This document shows, piece after piece, positions 2,766 to 9,586 of a stretch of DNA of 36,969 nucleotides; the stretch's first letter is position 1; the number at the start of each line of letters is the position of its first letter. The notes beneath the pieces are model-generated. The model was not told where the DNA came from and searched no databases. It saw nothing but the letters and a program-made list of their open reading frames with translations. Location: the NCBI GenBank assembly GCA_003058525.1, contig QBVD01000066.1:1-36969 (forward strand), written 5' to 3'. A program made the translations under genes and the position numbers. Source of the stretch: a gamma proteobacterium symbiont of Ctena orbiculata. Lineage in GTDB: Bacteria > Pseudomonadota > Gammaproteobacteria > Chromatiales > Chromatiaceae.

Positions 2766-3182
2766 ATGGATATCAAACAAACGCTCGCCCTCACCCTTGT
2801 CTCGATCCTGATACTCAGCACGCCGATTCCCGCCCATGCCAGAAACTGCATCAAGGGTAAGCCCTGCGGCAAAGGATGCATCGCACTCAACAAAACCTGC
2901 CGCATCGGCACAGATCCCAGCGGCAGCGGCAACACATTAAGATACGATCCTGCACTGCAACCGGGCGCCGTCATCCGCCGATCCGTGCTTAAGCTGCCCA
3001 AGGTCTATATCGTTATTGCGGATTCGGTCAACGCAAAGGAGTTACCCCACTCGTCAAATATCACCGGGCGATACAAACAGGGCCAAAGGGTGTTTGTTTA
3101 TGAAACCGAGCACGCCTGGGCGCGGATCTCCAATATGCAACCGGATGAATGGGTAAAGCTGGAGGCTTTGCGATTGAAATAG
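2766..3182 (+). CDS. Small exported Cys-rich protein with SH3-like C-terminus
   Basis: The 138-residue product starts with a clear Sec signal peptide (hydrophobic core about residues 8-22, cleavage after AHA). The mature N-terminus carries a compact cysteine cluster, CIKGKPCGKGC...CR, a motif seen in small exported proteins of unknown role. The C-terminal half (about residues 75-138) resembles a bacterial SH3-like fold, with alternating beta segments ending in WVKLEALRL. AAGGA lies seven bases before the ATG. It converges with the first of the three surface-protein genes, with 25 bases between stops. Function is unknown; wall or metal binding are possibilities only. Confidence 0.65.
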   Translation: MDIKQTLALTLVSILILSTPIPAHARNCIKGKPCGKGCIALNKTCRIGTDPSGSGNTLRYDPALQPGAVIRRSVLKLPKVYIVIADSVNAKELPHSSNITGRYKQGQRVFVYETEHAWARISNMQPDEWVKLEALRLK

Positions 3183-3207
3183 AGTGCCAAAGCTGTGGCA
3201 GTTATCA

Positions 3208-5013
3208 CTAATTACGATTCACGCTGCGAATCAACTCAATCGTCTCACCCAGCTGGGCTGGCCCGACGTCGGCCGACATGGCGGCGAAACCGATGACGGG
3301 GACACCGTCCCAATAGTTATTGACACCACTGCCCAAACCACCCGTGGGTTGGGTCAGGGCTCCGATACTGGAACTACTTTCATAATTACGGTCGTCATCC
3401 GTATAAAATATAAAAGTCGACCAACCAGCCTGAAAACCTGAATCCAAAGTAAGCGCCAGTTCATTCTCGTTGGGTGACCCGAACAAAGCGCTAGAACTAC
3501 CGTTCGTCCTACGGAGGGTATTTACATTGACACTTCGTTGTAAGAACAATTCATGTGGTGGAGGATAAGGATTAAGCGGCGCAAGACCAGGATCACCATG
3601 ACCTAGCGTACCCACGTCTAGCTCATAATCGTAATATATGATACCGGTATAGACATCTCTGCTATCACCCTGACGCAATTCAAACCCGGCATTAATGCAG
3701 TGGTTCCCTGCGCCATCGTGCGGGTAGTCCTGAACCACAGCACCCAACGCGACAAGAGTCACCTCACGGCCGTCATTGACGCCATCATCCAGCTCACCCA
3801 CACAAGCCGTCACGTTTGAATCCAACTGGTTGGTCAACAATCCTCCGTTATAGATACCATGTTTGCGCATTGGAAAGGTCAAGACTACGTCCGTCTCACC
3901 AAAGACACTCTCTTCAACAAAATAGGGCCCTGACACCTTATACGCACTAAGTACGATGGCCATAGGCAGAGGATTGGAACCCATCGGTACCGACGGCTGC
4001 GGCGAGATGTCATGCAACGCACCAGTGTCGTACTCGGTCAAGGGTAGGGTTTCGCCCTTCATGTCATCCCCAAGTGCATTGGTGATGTAGGCCTCCCGGA
4101 CATCTCCCGAAGCCAGGGAGGGCAGACGGTAGTGCACCGGATCATCGGGCAGGTAGTGCTGGGCGACGGTCGTGTATCGGTCAATATGCACGCCCTCCTG
4201 CACGAAGGCCGAACCCGTAGCCACGTTGATCATGATGCCGAAGGCATTAATGCCTCCGCTTGGCGCCACCAGGCCAGCGTTGTGGCTGTGGTCGTAGGGC
4301 CGTGCCGGATCGCCGTTGTCCTGGGCCACTCCGCTACTACCCATGCTGCCTGGCTCAAAGCCGTTGATTGCATTTACACTCGCCGCACCCACCGCCCAGG
4401 CATCCGCCACAACGGAACAGTCCGCCGGTATACCATTGGCATCATGCAACAGGCCGTACATCGTGATGGAGCGATCACCCGCACCGCTGTCGATTATCCC
4501 GTCAGCGACTCCGCCGGCATCGATCTCGGCCTCAAGTCCCCCATCAATGGCCGGTCCGGCGCCATCGGCAATGTCACCCATCTCGATGATCTCCACATAG
4601 CCTTCCGTCAGATCTGCGTCTGTAGTGGCTGTGTAGGGATTTTGAACATCGATGCCGGCCTGCAGCCCGGCCTTGGCGGGATAGGTGCAGCTCTCGTCCT
4701 CGGTAATCAGGTTAGGCAGCCCCGTATCCGGATTCATACGCAGGGTGGCGTTCCAGACATCGGTGGGGGAGAGATAGAGGTTGATATTCAGCAGATCCGC
4801 ACCAATGCGTGAGTCTAGCAGGCGCACCCGCACCGCCTTGTACATACCGCTGGTATTGGTCACCGTGAAGTTGGTGATGAAGTTGTTGTTGACCGTGTAG
4901 TAAGGCAGTAAGGCCACCTGGCCGGTATGATCATAGTTGATATGGGCAGCGGAGGTAATGCTCGCTGCGGCCATGAGCAGCAGGGCTATGAAAGACTTGA
5001 GTCCTTTCAACAT
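3208..5013 (-). CDS. Exported protein of tandem paralog family, copy 1 (distal)
   Basis: The 601-residue protein has a signal peptide (MLKGLKSFIALLLM, cleavage near AHA) and no further membrane segment, so it is exported to the periplasm or surface. The N-terminal part contains GQVALLPYYTVNNN and VRVRLLDSRIGADLLN, typical of an all-beta fold; an Asp/Gly-rich stretch lies at about 150-180. About residues 455-560 differ from the other copies; the C-terminus (PVIGFAAMSADVGPAQLGET) is again shared. AGGAG precedes the ATG. It is the last gene of a three-copy tandem array on this strand, 64 bases from copy 2. I know of no assigned function for the family. Confidence 0.75.
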   Translation of the reverse strand: MLKGLKSFIALLLMAAASITSAAHINYDHTGQVALLPYYTVNNNFITNFTVTNTSGMYKAVRVRLLDSRIGADLLNINLYLSPTDVWNATLRMNPDTGLPNLITEDESCTYPAKAGLQAGIDVQNPYTATTDADLTEGYVEIIEMGDIADGAGPAIDGGLEAEIDAGGVADGIIDSGAGDRSITMYGLLHDANGIPADCSVVADAWAVGAASVNAINGFEPGSMGSSGVAQDNGDPARPYDHSHNAGLVAPSGGINAFGIMINVATGSAFVQEGVHIDRYTTVAQHYLPDDPVHYRLPSLASGDVREAYITNALGDDMKGETLPLTEYDTGALHDISPQPSVPMGSNPLPMAIVLSAYKVSGPYFVEESVFGETDVVLTFPMRKHGIYNGGLLTNQLDSNVTACVGELDDGVNDGREVTLVALGAVVQDYPHDGAGNHCINAGFELRQGDSRDVYTGIIYYDYELDVGTLGHGDPGLAPLNPYPPPHELFLQRSVNVNTLRRTNGSSSALFGSPNENELALTLDSGFQAGWSTFIFYTDDDRNYESSSSIGALTQPTGGLGSGVNNYWDGVPVIGFAAMSADVGPAQLGETIELIRSVNRN

Positions 5014-5077
5014 GGATCTTACTCCTGAATTCTGTTACTCATTAAGCATCGAAAATTGAATAAAGAGTACCCGCTGT

Positions 5078-6892
5078 TCAGTCACGATTCGTTTCCCGAA
5101 TCAATTCAACCGTCTCGCCCAGCTGGGCTGGCCCGACATCGGCTGCCATGGCGGAAAAACCAATCACGGGAACACCTGTCCAGCTGTTATTTACACCGGT
5201 ACCTAAACCACCTACAGGTTCAGTCAAGACGCCCATACTGGGGTTACTTTCATAGATATATGTATTCAAGTAATTGTTTATGTAAAAGATGGAAGTCATC
5301 CATCCAGCCTGAAAACCAGGATCCAGGGTAAACTCAAATTCGTTTTCATTAGGTGAACCGAACAAAGAACTGGTGATACCAGTCGACTTGCGAATTGTAT
5401 TCACATTAACGTTACGTTCTAAAAATAATGCATGTGGAATACCTATTGGACTAACCCCTCCAAAATTATTTTCTCCATGACCTAACGTAGCCACAGCTAC
5501 CTCATAATCGTAATATACGATATTAGTATAAAGATCCCTGTCTTCTCCCTGCTTCAATTCAGTTCCGGCATTTGCGCAGTGGTTACCCGCCCCATCGTGC
5601 GGATAGTCCTGAACCAGCTCCCCTAACGAACCGAGGGTCACCTCCCGGCCATCGTTGACACCGTCATCCAAGGCACCCACACAAGCCATCTCGTTCGGAT
5701 CCAGTTGGTTTGTGAGGGTGCCGCCGTTATAGATCCCATGCTTGCGCATCGGAAAGGTCAACACAATATCTGTCTCTCCAAAGACGTTCTCATCAATAAA
5801 ATAGGGGCCTGATACCGTATCAGCGCTGAGCACCATGGCAATCGGCAATGGATTCGACCCCATCGGCACCGATGGCAGCGGCGAGATGTCATGCAGCGCG
5901 CCGGTGTCGTACTCGGTCAAAGGCAGAGTGTCGCCCTTCATGTCATCCCCAAGTGCATTGGTGATGTAGGCCTCCCGGACATCTCCCGAAGCCAGGGACG
6001 GCAGGCGGTAGTGCACCAGATCATCGGGCAGATAGTGCTGGGCCACTGTTGCATAGCGGTCAATGTGCACCCCCTCCTGCACAAAGGCCGCCCCTGATGC
6101 AATGTTGATCATGATGCCGTAAGCGTTGATACCCCCGCTCGGCGCCACCAGGCCGGCGTTGTGGCTGTGATCGTAGGGCAGGGCCGGATCGCCGTTGTCC
6201 TGGGCCACTCCGCTACTACCCATGCTGCCTGGTTCAAAGCCGTTGATCGTGCTTGCACTCACCGTGCCCGCCGCCCAGGCATCCGCCACTACGGAACAGT
6301 CCGCCGGTATACCATTGGCATCATGCAACAGGCCGTACATCGTGATGGAACGATCACCCGCACCGCTGTCGATTAGCCCGTCAGCGACTCCGCCGGCATC
6401 GATCTCGGCCTCAAGTCCCCCATCAATGGCCGGTCCGGCGCCATCGGCAATGTCACCCATCTCGATGATCTCCACATAGCCTTCCGTCAGATCTGCGTCT
6501 GTAGTGGCTGTGTAGGGATTTTCAAAATCGATGCCGGCTTGCAGGCCGGCCTTGGCGGGATAGGTGCAGCTCTCGTCCTCGGTGATCAGGTTGGGCAGCC
6601 CCGTATCCGGATTCATGCGCAGGGTGGCGTTCCAGACATCGTAGGGGGAGAGGTAGAGGTTGATGTTAAGCAGGTCCGCACCGATGCGGGAGTCGAGCAG
6701 ACGCACCCGCACCGCCTTGTACTTAACGGTGGTATTGGTCACCGTGAAGTTGGTGATGAAATTGTTGTTGACCGTGTAGTAGGGCAGCAGGGCCACCTGG
6801 CCGGTGCGGTCGTGGTTGATATGGACCGCGAAGGTAGTACTCGTTACGGCCATGAGCAGCAGGGTGATAAAAGACTTGAGTCCTTTCAACAT
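5078..6892 (-). CDS. Exported protein of tandem paralog family, copy 2 (middle)
   Basis: The 604-residue protein is organised like its neighbours: signal peptide, conserved beta-rich N-terminal two thirds, a variable segment at about residues 455-565, and the shared C-terminal PVIGFSAMAADVGPAQLGET. It is closest to copy 1: large parts of the two genes are almost identical at DNA level, for instance 6300-6519 against 4421-4640. Conserved cysteines (ESCTYP, PADCSVV, ACVG, NHCANAG) suggest disulfides in an exported fold. A GGGAG site precedes the ATG. The 82-base gap to copy 3 and 64-base gap to copy 1 suggest one transcript. Function is not known. Confidence 0.75.
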   Translation of the reverse strand: MLKGLKSFITLLLMAVTSTTFAVHINHDRTGQVALLPYYTVNNNFITNFTVTNTTVKYKAVRVRLLDSRIGADLLNINLYLSPYDVWNATLRMNPDTGLPNLITEDESCTYPAKAGLQAGIDFENPYTATTDADLTEGYVEIIEMGDIADGAGPAIDGGLEAEIDAGGVADGLIDSGAGDRSITMYGLLHDANGIPADCSVVADAWAAGTVSASTINGFEPGSMGSSGVAQDNGDPALPYDHSHNAGLVAPSGGINAYGIMINIASGAAFVQEGVHIDRYATVAQHYLPDDLVHYRLPSLASGDVREAYITNALGDDMKGDTLPLTEYDTGALHDISPLPSVPMGSNPLPIAMVLSADTVSGPYFIDENVFGETDIVLTFPMRKHGIYNGGTLTNQLDPNEMACVGALDDGVNDGREVTLGSLGELVQDYPHDGAGNHCANAGTELKQGEDRDLYTNIVYYDYEVAVATLGHGENNFGGVSPIGIPHALFLERNVNVNTIRKSTGITSSLFGSPNENEFEFTLDPGFQAGWMTSIFYINNYLNTYIYESNPSMGVLTEPVGGLGTGVNNSWTGVPVIGFSAMAADVGPAQLGETVELIRETNRD

Positions 6893-6974
6893 GAATCTGA
6901 CTCCCTAGTTCTATTATTCATAAAGTGCCGGCTATAGTGATGACGGTACACTGTTCTGTTAAGCATTCTGGTGT

Positions 6975-8780
6975 TCATTCACGATTCGTCTCCCGAATCA
7001 GCTCAACCGTCTCACCCACCTGAGTGGGTCTGATATCGGCTGCCATGGCGGAAAATCCGATCACCGGAACACCGGTCCAGGTATTGCTGACATCAAAACC
7101 CAGGCCACCGTCAGGTTCAATCAGTGCTGTGATGCCCTGGTTAGACGCATAATCGGAGAGCACGCTGAACTTTATCCAACCCGCTTGGATACCACCATAA
7201 ATATTCCAATTGAATACATTTGGCGCCGGTGTAAAGAATACACTTTGATTGCCTCCAGCCCACCTGTTTACAGAAATTACATTAACAGACCGGTTGACTG
7301 TAGCGACGATTGATGGCAATAGCTCGGGTGGCGTCGTTGGCCAAGAGTTGTTCACTGAAAAGAGTCCTTCCTGTTCTTCATAGTTTCTATACACCATTCG
7401 TAATAGAAAGTCTTGATTGTCGTAATTGATAAAACCCGCATTGGTGCAGAGGTTGCCGGCACCATCATGGGGAAAGTCCTGAAACACCGCAGCTAGCGTC
7501 GGCAGGGTTACGACATGGCCATCACTGATACCATCACCCAGAGACCCTGCACAGGCGGCTTCGTTTGTATCCTGTTGATTGGTGAGTGCGCCGCCATTGA
7601 AGATCCCGTGCTTGCGCATCGGAAAGGTCAATACAATGTCCGTCTCACCATGTGTATCGTCAAAGCCACCCACAACATAAAAAGGGGCTGCCACACTCTC
7701 TGCGCTGAGCACCATGGCAATCGGCAGGGGATTCGACCCCATTGGTACCGACGGCAGCGGCGAGATATCGTGCAAAGCGCCGGTGTCGTACTCGGTCAGG
7801 GGCATAGTGTCGCCCTTCTTCCCATCACCCTGTGCATTGGTGATGTAGGCCTCCCGGATGTCCCCAGACGCTAGGGACGGTAAACGGTAATTTACCGGGT
7901 CATCGGGCAGGTAGTGTTGAGCGACGGTCGTGTAACGGTCGATGTGCACCCCCTCCTGCACAAAAGCCGCCCCAGATGCCATATTAATCACGATACCGTA
8001 GGTGTTGATGCCCCCGCTCGGCATCACCAGGCCGGCGTTGTGGCTGTCGGCATAGGGTAGTGCCGAGTCGCCGCTATCCTGAGCCACTCCATTCGCACCC
8101 ATGCTGCCCGGCTCGAAGCCGTTGATGTTGCTTGCACTCACCGCACCCGCCGTCCAGGCATCCTCTACCACGGAACAGTCCGCCGGCTGCCCGTTGGCAT
8201 CATGTAGCAGGCCCGCCGTGATGTCGATGTCACCAGCAACTGCATTGATAGCACCGTCAGCGATACCACTCGCATCAATCTCGGCATAGAAGCCACCATC
8301 GGCAGCCGGACCAAGGCCGTCAGCGATTTCACCCATCTCGATGATCTCCACATAGCCTTCTGTAACATCGTCGTCCGTTGTGGCTGTGTAGGGATTTTGA
8401 AAATCGATACCGGCCTGCAGCCCGGCCTTGTCGGGATAGGTGCAGCTTTCGTCCTCGGTGATCAGGTTGGGCAGTCCCGTATCCGGATTCATACGCAGGG
8501 TGGCGTTCCAGACATCGAAGGGAGAGAGATAGAGGTTGATGTTCAGCAGGTCCGCGCCAATGCGGGAATCGAGCAGGCGTACCCGCACCGCCTTGTACTT
8601 ACCGGTGGTATTGGTCACCGTGAAGTTGGTGATTAAGTTGCTGATGGACTTGTTGCTGACCGTGTAGTAAGGCAGCAGGGCCACCTGCCCGGTGCGGTCG
8701 TAGTTGATATGGACCGCGAGTGTGGAACCACTTGCGGTTATGAGTAGCAGGACGATGATAGATTTGAGTCCATTCAGCAC
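6975..8780 (-). CDS. Exported protein of tandem paralog family, copy 3 (promoter-proximal)
   Basis: The 601-residue protein is the first gene of the array and starts with GTG; an AAGGAG site eight bases upstream decides this. It has the same plan as copies 1 and 2 but is the most divergent. It carries a four-residue insertion after PYYTVSNK, a different Asp-rich loop (about 155-180), and a quite different segment from about 455 to 560 where the SLFGSPNENE motif of the others is absent. The cysteine positions and the C-terminal PVIGFSAMAAD are kept. The 100 bases upstream must hold the promoter of the array, divergent from the acetyltransferase gene. Function is not known. Confidence 0.75.
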   Translation of the reverse strand: MLNGLKSIIVLLLITASGSTLAVHINYDRTGQVALLPYYTVSNKSISNLITNFTVTNTTGKYKAVRVRLLDSRIGADLLNINLYLSPFDVWNATLRMNPDTGLPNLITEDESCTYPDKAGLQAGIDFQNPYTATTDDDVTEGYVEIIEMGEIADGLGPAADGGFYAEIDASGIADGAINAVAGDIDITAGLLHDANGQPADCSVVEDAWTAGAVSASNINGFEPGSMGANGVAQDSGDSALPYADSHNAGLVMPSGGINTYGIVINMASGAAFVQEGVHIDRYTTVAQHYLPDDPVNYRLPSLASGDIREAYITNAQGDGKKGDTMPLTEYDTGALHDISPLPSVPMGSNPLPIAMVLSAESVAAPFYVVGGFDDTHGETDIVLTFPMRKHGIFNGGALTNQQDTNEAACAGSLGDGISDGHVVTLPTLAAVFQDFPHDGAGNLCTNAGFINYDNQDFLLRMVYRNYEEQEGLFSVNNSWPTTPPELLPSIVATVNRSVNVISVNRWAGGNQSVFFTPAPNVFNWNIYGGIQAGWIKFSVLSDYASNQGITALIEPDGGLGFDVSNTWTGVPVIGFSAMAADIRPTQVGETVELIRETNRE

Positions 8781-8880
8781 GGATCTGACTCCTTGATATC
8801 CTTTGGAAACCTAGCACAATGATTAGTGAATCATCCCAAGGACACTAAAATAACATTGATCAAGTTATGGCGCACGAAAA

Positions 8881-9297
8881 ATGAGTAGTGCAGAACAATA
8901 TGACATCACGGCGGCTGACAACACCCATTTCGAAGGGATAGTCGAGCTGTTCACCACACCCGAAGAGTTTTTCTTGATCTATCCATCCGGAACCTGGCCT
9001 TTCGACAAGGCGCAACTCGAAAGACTCAGCAAGGAGCGGAGGGACTTCACGGTAGTCCTGGACACCGGACGTGTCATCGGTTTCGCCAATCTCTATACCA
9101 GCATCGCCGGCGACCGGTATTTCATCGGCAACCTGGTCATATCGGATGCCTACCGGGGCCAGGGTATTGGCAGGCGCCTGGTCCGGCACATGTGCGACAG
9201 GATCTTCGAACGCTACGCTTCAACCGTCTACATTTCGGTGTTCACCGACAACACCCCGGCACTGCTGCATATGCGTCTCGATGCGCGGAGCTGGTGA
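8881..9297 (+). CDS. GNAT-family N-acetyltransferase, short C-terminus
   Basis: The acetyl-CoA-binding motif A is clear: NLVISDAYRGQGIGRRLVRHM at about residues 82-102 contains the Q/R-x-x-G-x-G/A loop. The N-terminal region contains EEFFLIYPSGTWPF, usual for a GNAT subgroup acting on unknown small molecules or proteins. At 138 residues it is shorter than typical members: after VFTDNTPALL the usual YxRLGF strand is missing and the protein continues HMRLDARSW. The sequence therefore looks as if an internal piece near the end was lost. No strong ribosome-binding site precedes the ATG. It is divergent from the surface-protein array. Confidence 0.7.
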   Translation: MSSAEQYDITAADNTHFEGIVELFTTPEEFFLIYPSGTWPFDKAQLERLSKERRDFTVVLDTGRVIGFANLYTSIAGDRYFIGNLVISDAYRGQGIGRRLVRHMCDRIFERYASTVYISVFTDNTPALLHMRLDARSW

Positions 9298-9304
9298 GTT
9301 CATC

Positions 9305-9437
9305 GGTGCGGCAAGCCGCACCCTACAGCCGATGGCACGCATAGCACTGTATTCGGGAGAACTGCCAGTTTAAGTCCGCAATTGAACGCTAATTAACGCA
9401 AATCATATTTCCTGCGTAGGGTGCGGCTTGCCGCACC
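9305..9437. repeat. Pair of 22-bp inverted repeats, each itself palindromic
   Basis: GGTGCGGCAAGCCGCACC at 9305-9322 is a perfect palindrome. With the following CCTAC it recurs exactly inverted at 9416-9437. The pair flanks 89 bases without a gene and fills most of the spacer between the acetyltransferase gene and the RND pump gene (9298-9586). No other feature is seen in that spacer. The outward position could act in transcript ending for the convergent genes. Confidence 0.6.
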
Positions 9438-9586
9438 GTCAAACTATCAGGATAGGTTTGTGCCATGCTGGCCTTACAAATTGGTGTAGCAGGACCCCAC
9501 CCTACAGCTCAATGCCAGGAGAGGGACCTATCAGTGTTCATTCGCCTCCTGATAAGACCTCCCGTCAAGAGTACTCCAGTCAAGCA

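Follow-up and report, generated by a model that had tools for sequence, protein, structure and literature searches.

A tandem array of three exported proteins with a constant frame and a variable segment, probable surface proteins, in a Candidatus Thiodiazotropha symbiont of Ctena orbiculata

The window, i.e. the whole stretch of 36,969 nucleotides analysed here, belongs to the draft genome of a Ctena orbiculata symbiont (G000), which was placed in the genus Candidatus Thiodiazotropha, the symbionts of lucinid clams. It carries three adjacent genes of near-equal length, A (3208-5013, 601 aa), B (5078-6892, 604 aa) and C (6975-8780, 601 aa, GTG start), each a full-length open frame encoding a member of the same exported family. 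A preliminary description of the locus had given the lengths and coordinates exactly; its strand is corrected here to the minus strand, so that the reading order is C, B, A. An AAGGAG-like stretch was seen by eye immediately 5' of the GTG of gene C, and a terminator-like hairpin (3185-3200, minus strand), a match to the consensus only, lies directly 3' of gene A. Nine hairpins of this kind were observed in the region for 4.7 expected by shuffling, and a promoter scan was uninformative (8 observed, 5.7 expected). In line with the export proposed earlier, the N terminus of each protein reads, on inspection by eye, as a Sec signal peptide some 22 residues long (minus strand, 4948-5013 in A, 6827-6892 in B and 8715-8780 in C). 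The neighbours scanned around the array encode an RND pump and its adaptor, YdjM and an SH3-domain protein. Altogether the genome holds five full copies of the gene, A, B and C in the window and two others (C37 and C104).

A and B are 83% identical, while C shares 68% with A and 70% with B. The differences cluster in residues ~446-560, hereafter V (minus strand, 3334-3678 in A, 5201-5557 in B and approximately 7098-7430 in C). In an alignment of seven array-clade members, including the G056 sequence with an X at its stop, the number of invariant columns per 20 was 5 to 18 across residues 21-440, dropped to 0-3 across residues 441-560, and was 10 at 561-580 and 6 at 581-600. The motif SLFGSPNENE is found in B and its variant ALFGSPNENE in A, and it is absent from C. 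These data uphold the earlier picture of a local array of exported proteins that share a constant frame and vary in a single C-terminal patch. The difference in V relative to that in the frame had a median ratio of 2.42 over 21 array-clade pairs, compared to 1.12 over 66 pairs of the core clade, whose members are orthologues of a conserved single-copy gene. Since V of this core orthologue is scarcely more variable than its frame, V is not inherently unconstrained. When V of A was used as a query in G000, the same five full genes were the only matches (E up to 1), so that no separate V cassette was detected in this genome.

Comparison with relatives revealed that the array varies between strains, in copy number as well as in the variable segment. 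Within the species one other genome, the complete G056, was compared: it has one copy at the locus where G000 has three, this single copy carries an in-frame stop, and its V is not identical to those of G000. In this one genome both strain comparisons called for in the preliminary description thus came out in its favour. The flanks of the locus are 98.2% and 94.8% identical between the two genomes, against ~81% for the gene. Flank comparison further delimited a stretch of G000 (3153-8947) that is missing at the same site in four relatives, the flanks being 106-139 bases apart in G009, G015 and G005 and 530 in G003. The array is present in 3 of the 21 genomes searched in the species and genus, plus G056, and most of the genus is devoid of an array-clade copy. 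A collapsed or mis-joined repeat might be suspected in a draft of 112 contigs, but the three genes are 17-32% different from one another and sit within a contig whose neighbours are uniform, and a related copy occupies the same site in the complete genome; we rejected such an artefact as scarcely credible. The array is probably an accessory, strain-variable complement to the conserved single-copy core gene, which would supply the bulk of the coat.

The first ~450 residues are indeed strongly conserved, but selection on a scaffold is not supported as the sole cause: part of the likeness looks like the outcome of gene conversion, visible as a synonymous mosaic. Between A and B, pS was 0.00 at residues 128-177 and 0.71 at residues 478-527, and the longest stretch in which the residues common to both proteins use identical codons counted 58 codons (residues 119-180), a length attained in 0 of 2000 permutations. 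A run of 39, likewise reached in 0 of 2000 permutations, was found between core orthologues of different species; because such long runs also occur there, a run alone is no proof of conversion between neighbours. V behaved differently in G056. In trees the frame of the G056 protein falls together with A and B, and its middle segment is 89% identical to B and 74% to G012, another species, whereas its V is 63% identical to that of G012 and 33-40% identical to those of A-C. These identities indicate, with moderate support, that V of G056 has a history different from that of its frame. The clade tests on V were selected after the identities were known; one gave a borderline result (p 0.046), and for V the complete array clade was not rejected (p 0.373). 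We discarded the idea that V of C derived from the core copy (40-41% identity to the core compared to 26-28% to A and B, support 80/74), as the alternative was not rejected. A shufflon or invertible array was also discarded, A, B and C having the same orientation and the only array-spanning inverted repeat found being 15 nt long.

The preliminary description had suggested a binding family under diversification. No pairwise dN/dS above 1 was obtained among the pairs compared, synonymous sites in V being near or at saturation, and the claim of diversifying selection drew no support from this comparison. This result would suit ordinary duplicates of a surface protein, in which V, as the part under least constraint, has drifted and the remainder is held similar by gene conversion, without any selection for diversity. 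The average codon bias of the array genes, the in-frame stop in the only same-species allele and the two internally deleted remnants of family genes found in relatives point the same way. Yet A, B and C keep full-length open frames, and the median V/frame ratio of 1.12 in the core clade, against 2.42 in the array clade, argues against simple drift. We regard this explanation as rather unlikely, and give selection for diversity of V an even chance.

Domain and sequence searches gave little indication of function. Pfam returned no family for A, B or C, whose sequences showed no cytoplasmic domain, and NCBIfam only TIGR03760 for C, at E 0.21, far below the cut-off. Over 22 family members the best match in these two collections was lipo_TamL (E 0.0018, in 2 of 22), a stray weak match, and PHROGs returned no family for B or for one phage member. 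Sequence searches of the PDB gave no significant match, the four matches of one search all being at E 0.72 and above, and a search for near-identical plasmid DNA returned nothing useful. AlphaFold2 applied to six bacterial sequences reached a pLDDT of 27.8 and was set aside; the structure model used is that of a phage family member, L116, and not of A, B or C. Foldseek comparison of this model with the PDB yielded nothing at E 0.001 or better, and its best matches were galectin-like beta-sandwiches with E values from 0.012 upwards. A search of BFVD folds gave two matches with E <0.001, taken as noise in view of TM-scores of 0.06-0.12. As the L116 model has no significant structural match, an S-layer fold is not shown. 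Its strand list, examined by eye, appears beta-sandwich-like with helices rather than barrel-like, and an outer-membrane porin was rejected on this predicted topology. Residues 446-490 of B, as tested, have no counterpart in the model, while residues 496-560 align to model positions 350-388, which would make the first half of V an insertion when compared with the phage protein.

The gene neighbourhood of relatives follows the order T2SS - lipoprotein - family protein - PpiC - Wzm/Wzt. When 12 further core loci of the genus were compared, all 12 had open frames matching the PpiC and lipoprotein neighbours of the core copy, and 11 had those matching its Wzt and Wzm neighbours. We also surveyed 21 loci in 17 genomes, picked because each holds a homologue. 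At 12 of these loci a PpiC domain was located no more than 5 kb away, and at 4 a secretin no more than 12 kb away; in 5 of the 17 genomes, with one locus each (G151, G252, G211, G237 and G067), neither was found on the contig. Runs of T2SS genes were directly read beside homologues in G022, G029 and G109. The Comamonas odontotermitis plasmid protein WP_224153019.1, annotated as 'cell surface protein', is a homologue (24.7% identity over 84% of the G049 member) in the order gspD, one hypothetical gene, WP_224153019.1, peptidylprolyl isomerase, ABC exporter. It shares with the family the T2SS - PpiC - ABC exporter setting; unlike A-C it is a single copy. No dedicated secretion genes lie within 12 kb of the Thiodiazotropha core copies in the four genomes measured, and neither T2SS, PpiC nor Wzm/Wzt genes were found beside the array; two matches to GspK-type T2SS genes occur elsewhere in G000. 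Because relatives have T2SS genes, PpiC and Wzm/Wzt as neighbours, the proteins are probably located on the outer surface. Of the earlier 'surface or periplasmic' suggestion the first half is thus the more probable: a periplasmic solute-binding role was rejected, as no such domain was found and the neighbourhood is surface-linked.

The preliminary description had offered attachment or recognition as possible roles. V might bind ligands of the clam gill or mucus, the array matching several lucinid hosts, since the genus inhabits lucinid clams and the array is an accessory trait (3 of 21 genomes plus G056). On the other hand, the wider family also has members on a Comamonas plasmid of rhizosphere source and on Nitratiruptor plasmids of the vent type, and an array-clade copy is missing from most of the genus, which makes a host-specificity factor quite improbable. 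A 2026 study of host-specific expression in Ca. T. endolucinida reported known interaction mechanisms without differential expression and many differentially expressed hypothetical genes (PMC13137333); this result neither supports nor excludes such a role.

Phages offer another reading of V. Unexpectedly, the same family is encoded on 18 viral contigs; a collection of phage records gave no match, and a second viral DNA pattern 0 matches. In 8 of the 9 contigs inspected the gene lies directly upstream of a terminase-like gene, one of these terminases being confirmed by PHROGs. In addition, superinfection exclusion has been proposed as the role of an S-layer protein that the OM43 phage Melnitz encodes (PMC9004378). 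The proteins could accordingly be phage receptors or shields, with V varying for phage escape and the phage copies altering the surface of the infected cell. However, the phage genes form a clade of their own, far from the array (profile match of 31% identity over 264 columns), and no Thiodiazotropha phage is known here. We consider this reading unlikely. An extended version, which we put forward as very doubtful, would make of the T2SS, lipoprotein, coat protein, PpiC and O-antigen exporter a previously undescribed surface-protein system and phage battleground, in which frames are homogenised by conversion, outward-facing V segments pass between strains and between species, and the coat gene has been taken up by marine phages, which express it late and so remodel the infected-cell surface against competing phages.

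Taken together, the neighbourhood of relatives, a genomic position like that of the S-layer protein Slr4, the acidic composition of the family proteins (pI 4.05-4.27) and the marked codon bias of the core copy, which ranks 99 of 102 in codon adaptation, suggest that the family most likely consists of Sec-exported, type II-secreted, S-layer-like surface proteins. Against this, the codon adaptation of A, B and C is ordinary (61, 70 and 72 of 102), unlike that of a massively expressed coat, and secretin linkage is a minority feature (4 of 21 homologue loci). We give about even odds to the reading that A, B and C are alternative forms of one secreted cell-surface protein, working like an S-layer or surface-coat subunit; a true crystalline S-layer is possible, though we hold it doubtful. 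In this scheme the signal peptide, read from the sequence, would direct Sec export; a PpiC-type isomerase and a small lipoprotein would aid folding, the T2SS would carry the protein across the outer membrane and surface polysaccharide would retain it, as the neighbourhood suggests, the array proteins needing T2SS, PpiC, lipoprotein and exporter genes located elsewhere in the genome. Export, assembly and anchoring would be the common task of the frame (residues 23-445 plus about 40 at the C terminus), with its copies homogenised partly by gene conversion. V would escape homogenisation, differing between copies, strains and species; it is probably outward-facing, and its diversity may be maintained because it alters what phages, hosts and neighbours see. 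If so, the family provides a concrete protein of the outer surface that contains its own variable site, an export set that is likely dedicated to it and a link to phages, and strain-level surface variation of lucinid symbionts becomes directly testable. It would also give a name to a large 'hypothetical / cell surface protein' family of Gammaproteobacteria, Comamonas, Nitratiruptor and viral contigs. Few descriptions exist of the surface coats of chemosynthetic animal symbionts, and the full text of open-licence PMC returned no paper pairing Thiodiazotropha with an S-layer.

Among known systems, Slr4 of Pseudoalteromonas tunicata is an S-layer protein with a coding region of 1,737 bp, a Sec/SPI signal peptide and no Pfam domain, whose gene lies directly downstream of a T2SS operon (PMC7821379, PMC11094555). 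The array proteins are of similar size, carry a Sec signal peptide and are likewise devoid of Pfam domains, a likeness by published description and not by sequence, and homologues in G022, G109 and Comamonas also lie directly downstream of T2SS genes. The square lattice, the EM phenotype on deletion and the very high abundance demonstrated for Slr4 (PMC7821379, PMC11094555) set it apart from the proteins described here; conversely, the tandem array with its variable segment is a feature of G000 that goes unmentioned for Slr4 in the parts of these articles drawn on here. The S-layer of Aeromonas is secreted by a dedicated T2SS (PMC7821379), the same route as proposed here, and is likened by route, not by sequence. 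Compared to Gram-negative S-layer proteins of the Slr4, VapA and RsaA kind, A, B and C have a Sec signal peptide, read by eye, but no sequence or fold relation was found (PDB sequences and Foldseek of the L116 model). Dedicated secretion genes are absent beside the array and found as a secretin near 4 of 21 homologues and in Comamonas, with T2SS genes elsewhere in G000; very high expression, judged from codons alone, would fit the core copy (99 of 102) rather than A-C (61-72 of 102). The sap system of Campylobacter fetus comprises several copies per genome, recombinant forms, strain-variable copy number and type, and glycosylation and LPS genes beside the locus (PMC4943207). Silent promoterless copies and DNA inversion are features of sap, whereas V of A matches five full genes only and the inverted repeat is 15 nt; an exporter of the sapCDEF type I kind is absent from the scanned array neighbours. 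Likened by description and not by sequence, the two systems nevertheless share several copies per genome, a copy number and type varying between strains, recombinant forms, and homologues with conserved and divergent parts that recombine, in a different place and to a different extent.

The three paralogs stand head to tail on the minus strand with intergenic gaps of 64-82 bases, gene C coming first in reading order (8780-6975, 601 codons), followed by B (6892-5078, 604 codons) and A (5013-3208, 601 codons). Each protein carries a Sec-type signal peptide, read by eye, and four cysteines, and has a calculated pI of 4.22-4.27. The variable segment V (residues ~446-560, the rest being referred to as the frame) is situated after the fourth conserved cysteine (439) and ahead of a GVPVIGF motif. 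The array is bordered on one side by genes for a YdjM-type membrane protein and an SH3-domain protein and on the other by an RND pump and an adaptor. An inverted repeat of 30 nt (arms 90% complementary, 89 nt between them) is found at 9297-9445. Further along, a frame of 1,174 residues at 21844-25368 matches TIGR03903, the TOMM-system kinase/cyclase fusion, below the cut-off (161.9 bits, cut-off 705.75). The host genome (G000) is a 4.74 Mb draft estimated to be complete, and it belongs to the lucinid-clam symbiont genus Candidatus Thiodiazotropha.

Using B as a query, matches were obtained in 21 of 56 relatives (own genome counted) and in 15 of the 20 same-genus genomes. Twelve of these 20 possess a near relative (at least 54% identity over most of the protein), G009 with its split copy included, the remaining three matches being distant and N-terminal only. 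Class-wide, a match was seen in 10 of 274 sampled genomes, again counting the own one. A tree of 23 proteins separated a core orthologue (C37 in G000), of which most of these genomes have one copy, from an array clade composed of A, B, C, one G012 gene and two tandem G016 genes, with C104, another full copy in G000, as sister. On this two-group tree, the array is an accessory branch that has undergone repeated duplication. In G009 a frameshift or a sequencing error breaks the core copy (L051:8217-10035) into two frames, one of 74 and one of 556 codons. Two short open frames of 142 codons in G015 (L057:7353-7778) and 238 codons in G012 (L043:7567-8280) keep the family N terminus and a C-terminal GVPVIGF-like tail and have lost the middle; they are independent internal deletions, either remnants or mini-proteins. 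In the distant genome G060 (L095:7174-19769), three family members of much greater size (717, 928 and 799 codons) are clustered near a gene for the isomerase PpiC.

At the array site, the complete genome of the same species, G056, holds one family gene (G056:C1:3131210-3132997), 81% identical to B, whose single in-frame TAA marks either a pseudogene or a sequencing error. Identity between the two genomes in the DNA around the array is 98.2% (8,421 bases) and 94.8% (2,229 bases), dropping to 83.5% and 89.8% right next to it; elsewhere it is 97.7% over 4,761 bases (C37 region) and 99.9% over 3,317 (C104 region). The array flanks are only 124, 106 and 139 bases apart in G009, G015 and G005, so that the site is empty in these genomes. 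They are 530 bases apart in G003, and in G016, G002 and G010 they enclose about 4 kb in which the search with B found no family gene. Given the single copy of G056 and these flank intervals, both copy number and presence of the array vary within and between species.

Synonymous difference (pS) between A and B is distributed as a mosaic: it is absent (0.00) from residues 128-177, stands at 0.17 in 78-127 and 178-227, and rises to 0.6-0.7 in 328-427 and 478-577. Across shared residues, the longest run of identical codons between A and B is 58 (residues 119-180), a length reached in none of 2000 permutations; that between A and C is 23 (residues 36-62; 1 of 2000), and that between B and C is unremarkable (242 of 2000). 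No signal was obtained with this test for the two G016 genes or the two G012 C175 genes (187 and 181 of 2000). Among interspecies core pairs, G000 C37 and G015 share a run of 39 identical codons (0 of 2000) and G000 C37 and G003 have no long run (314 of 2000). Since one interspecies core pair was also positive, the test reveals recent shared descent of a patch and not the route by which it arose.

In V the values are dS 1.27 and dN 0.27 for A-B, dS 2.87 and dN 0.82 for B-C and a saturated dS for A-C, and in none of these three pairs did dN/dS in V exceed 1. The ratio of amino-acid difference in V to that in the frame has a median of 2.42 (1.82-5.45) over 21 non-independent pairs of the array clade and of 1.12 (0.46-3.02) over 66 pairs, likewise non-independent, of the core clade. 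The excess variation of V is specific to the array clade, so V is not intrinsically free to vary. Over residues 301-445 the G056 array-site gene shares 89% identity with B and 74% with G012, while its V shares 63% with G012 and 40, 34 and 33% with B, A and C. Trees were built on 22 rows; of the 26 proteins, the one from G029, the two-frame copy of G009 and both core-type copies of G056 were left aside. G056 grouped with A and B in the frame tree (96/92) and with G012 in the V tree (97/98). In constraint tests, for which the groups were picked after the identities were known, the frame rejected G056+G012 by a narrow margin (p-AU 0.046), and A+B+G056 (0.025) and A+B+C+G056 (0.005) were rejected for V; A+B+C+G056 for the frame (0.165) and the whole array clade for V (0.373) were not. 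These sequence comparisons and trees indicate that V of G056 has its own history, distinct from that of its frame. The pattern would be the same whether V was exchanged or old lineages of V persist under continued rewriting of the frame by conversion.

The core copy of G000 is flanked by genes for a PpiC isomerase, a Wzm/Wzt-type (O-antigen-type ABC) exporter, a lipid A acyltransferase-like protein, glycosyltransferases and a small protein. Among 12 other core loci compared, all 12 have frames matching the core gene and its PpiC and small-protein neighbours, and 11 have those of Wzt and Wzm. Homologues in G109, G029, G022, G019 and G049 are each directly preceded by a small putative lipoprotein to which the small protein of G000 aligns (25-39% identity); this putative lipoprotein (L038:9495-9995; counterparts in L094, L096, L097, L100, L104 and L047) directly precedes the family gene, has no Pfam family in the two members scanned, and is a possible export or anchoring partner. 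Type II secretion (T2SS) genes E, F, K, a pseudopilin and the secretin run ahead of the lipoprotein and homologue in G022, and the order in G109 is secretin, lipoprotein, homologue, PpiC, permease (by eye) and Wzt-type ATPase. On a Comamonas odontotermitis plasmid the annotated order is gspK, PilN-domain, gspM, gspD, hypothetical and 'cell surface protein', the latter being the homologue, followed by peptidylprolyl isomerase, ABC permease and ABC ATPase, and on Nitratiruptor plasmids homologues lie near peptidylprolyl isomerase and prepilin genes. In a sample of 21 homologue loci from 17 genomes, a subset picked for holding a homologue, with several short contigs and three rows from the one G060 cluster (two credited with the same PpiC), 12 had a PpiC domain no farther than 5 kb away, and 4 had a secretin no farther than 12 kb away.

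The family also has a phage branch. An IMG/VR profile search combined with a DNA motif scan yielded 18 viral contigs encoding members of ~450 residues; IMG/VR contigs with family members are L105, L106, L116-L128, L138, L139, L141 and L142. The gene is whole in L106 and split into two frames in L105. The six phage members placed in the tree form a single clade (100/100), and in 8 of 9 contigs inspected the gene is directly upstream of a 416-residue terminase-like frame, identified as terminase by PHROGs in L106. The L106 protein had no match among 50,697 phage records. Profile comparison of phage and array proteins (probability 99.1, E 4.5e-19 over 264 columns) supports their relatedness. A model from six bacterial sequences was unusable (pLDDT 27.8); the phage member L116, modelled with 16 phage-contig and 6 bacterial sequences, reached pLDDT 73.9 and pTM 0.82. 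The predicted fold is beta-rich with a few helices, and weak at 289-309, 323-339 and the C-terminus. Foldseek against the PDB gave no match at E 0.001 or better, the best being parts of galectin-type beta-sandwiches (E 0.012-0.1). The phage form lacks a counterpart to the positions tested in the first half of V; the second half corresponds to model positions 350-388.

Most likely, the family is a T2SS-exported coat protein that requires a dedicated isomerase and would be held on surface polysaccharide. Export is predicted from the protein sequences and a surface position is suggested by the gene neighbourhood; we infer that the proteins may form a lattice, that V may be exposed and that selection may act on it. 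The array would supply variant subunits, V altering what is presented. Codon adaptation, referenced to 20 ribosomal-operon genes, ranked the core copy 99, C104 82, A 70, B 72 and C 61 among 102 background frames, which hints at a strongly expressed core coat with modestly expressed array variants.

Our literature search retrieved no paper treating both Thiodiazotropha and S-layer, and none joining at least four of cell surface protein, peptidylprolyl isomerase, type II secretion, Wzt and S-layer. The accessible portions of lucinid-symbiont papers (PMC11171427, PMC13137333, PMC12172469, PMC6872982, PMC9938160) contain no protein that can be equated with the array family; adhesin-like proteins of another kind appear in excerpts of the first. 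As for known systems, the available text on phage Melnitz reports a putative S-layer protein with a proposed role in superinfection (PMC9004378). In Campylobacter fetus, according to excerpts, S-layer genes occur in several copies and in recombinant forms, next to LPS/glycosylation genes (PMC4943207). According to the sections available, the gene of Slr4 sits immediately downstream of a T2SS operon (PMC7821379, PMC11094555), a setting like that of the family homologues in G022, G109 and Comamonas.
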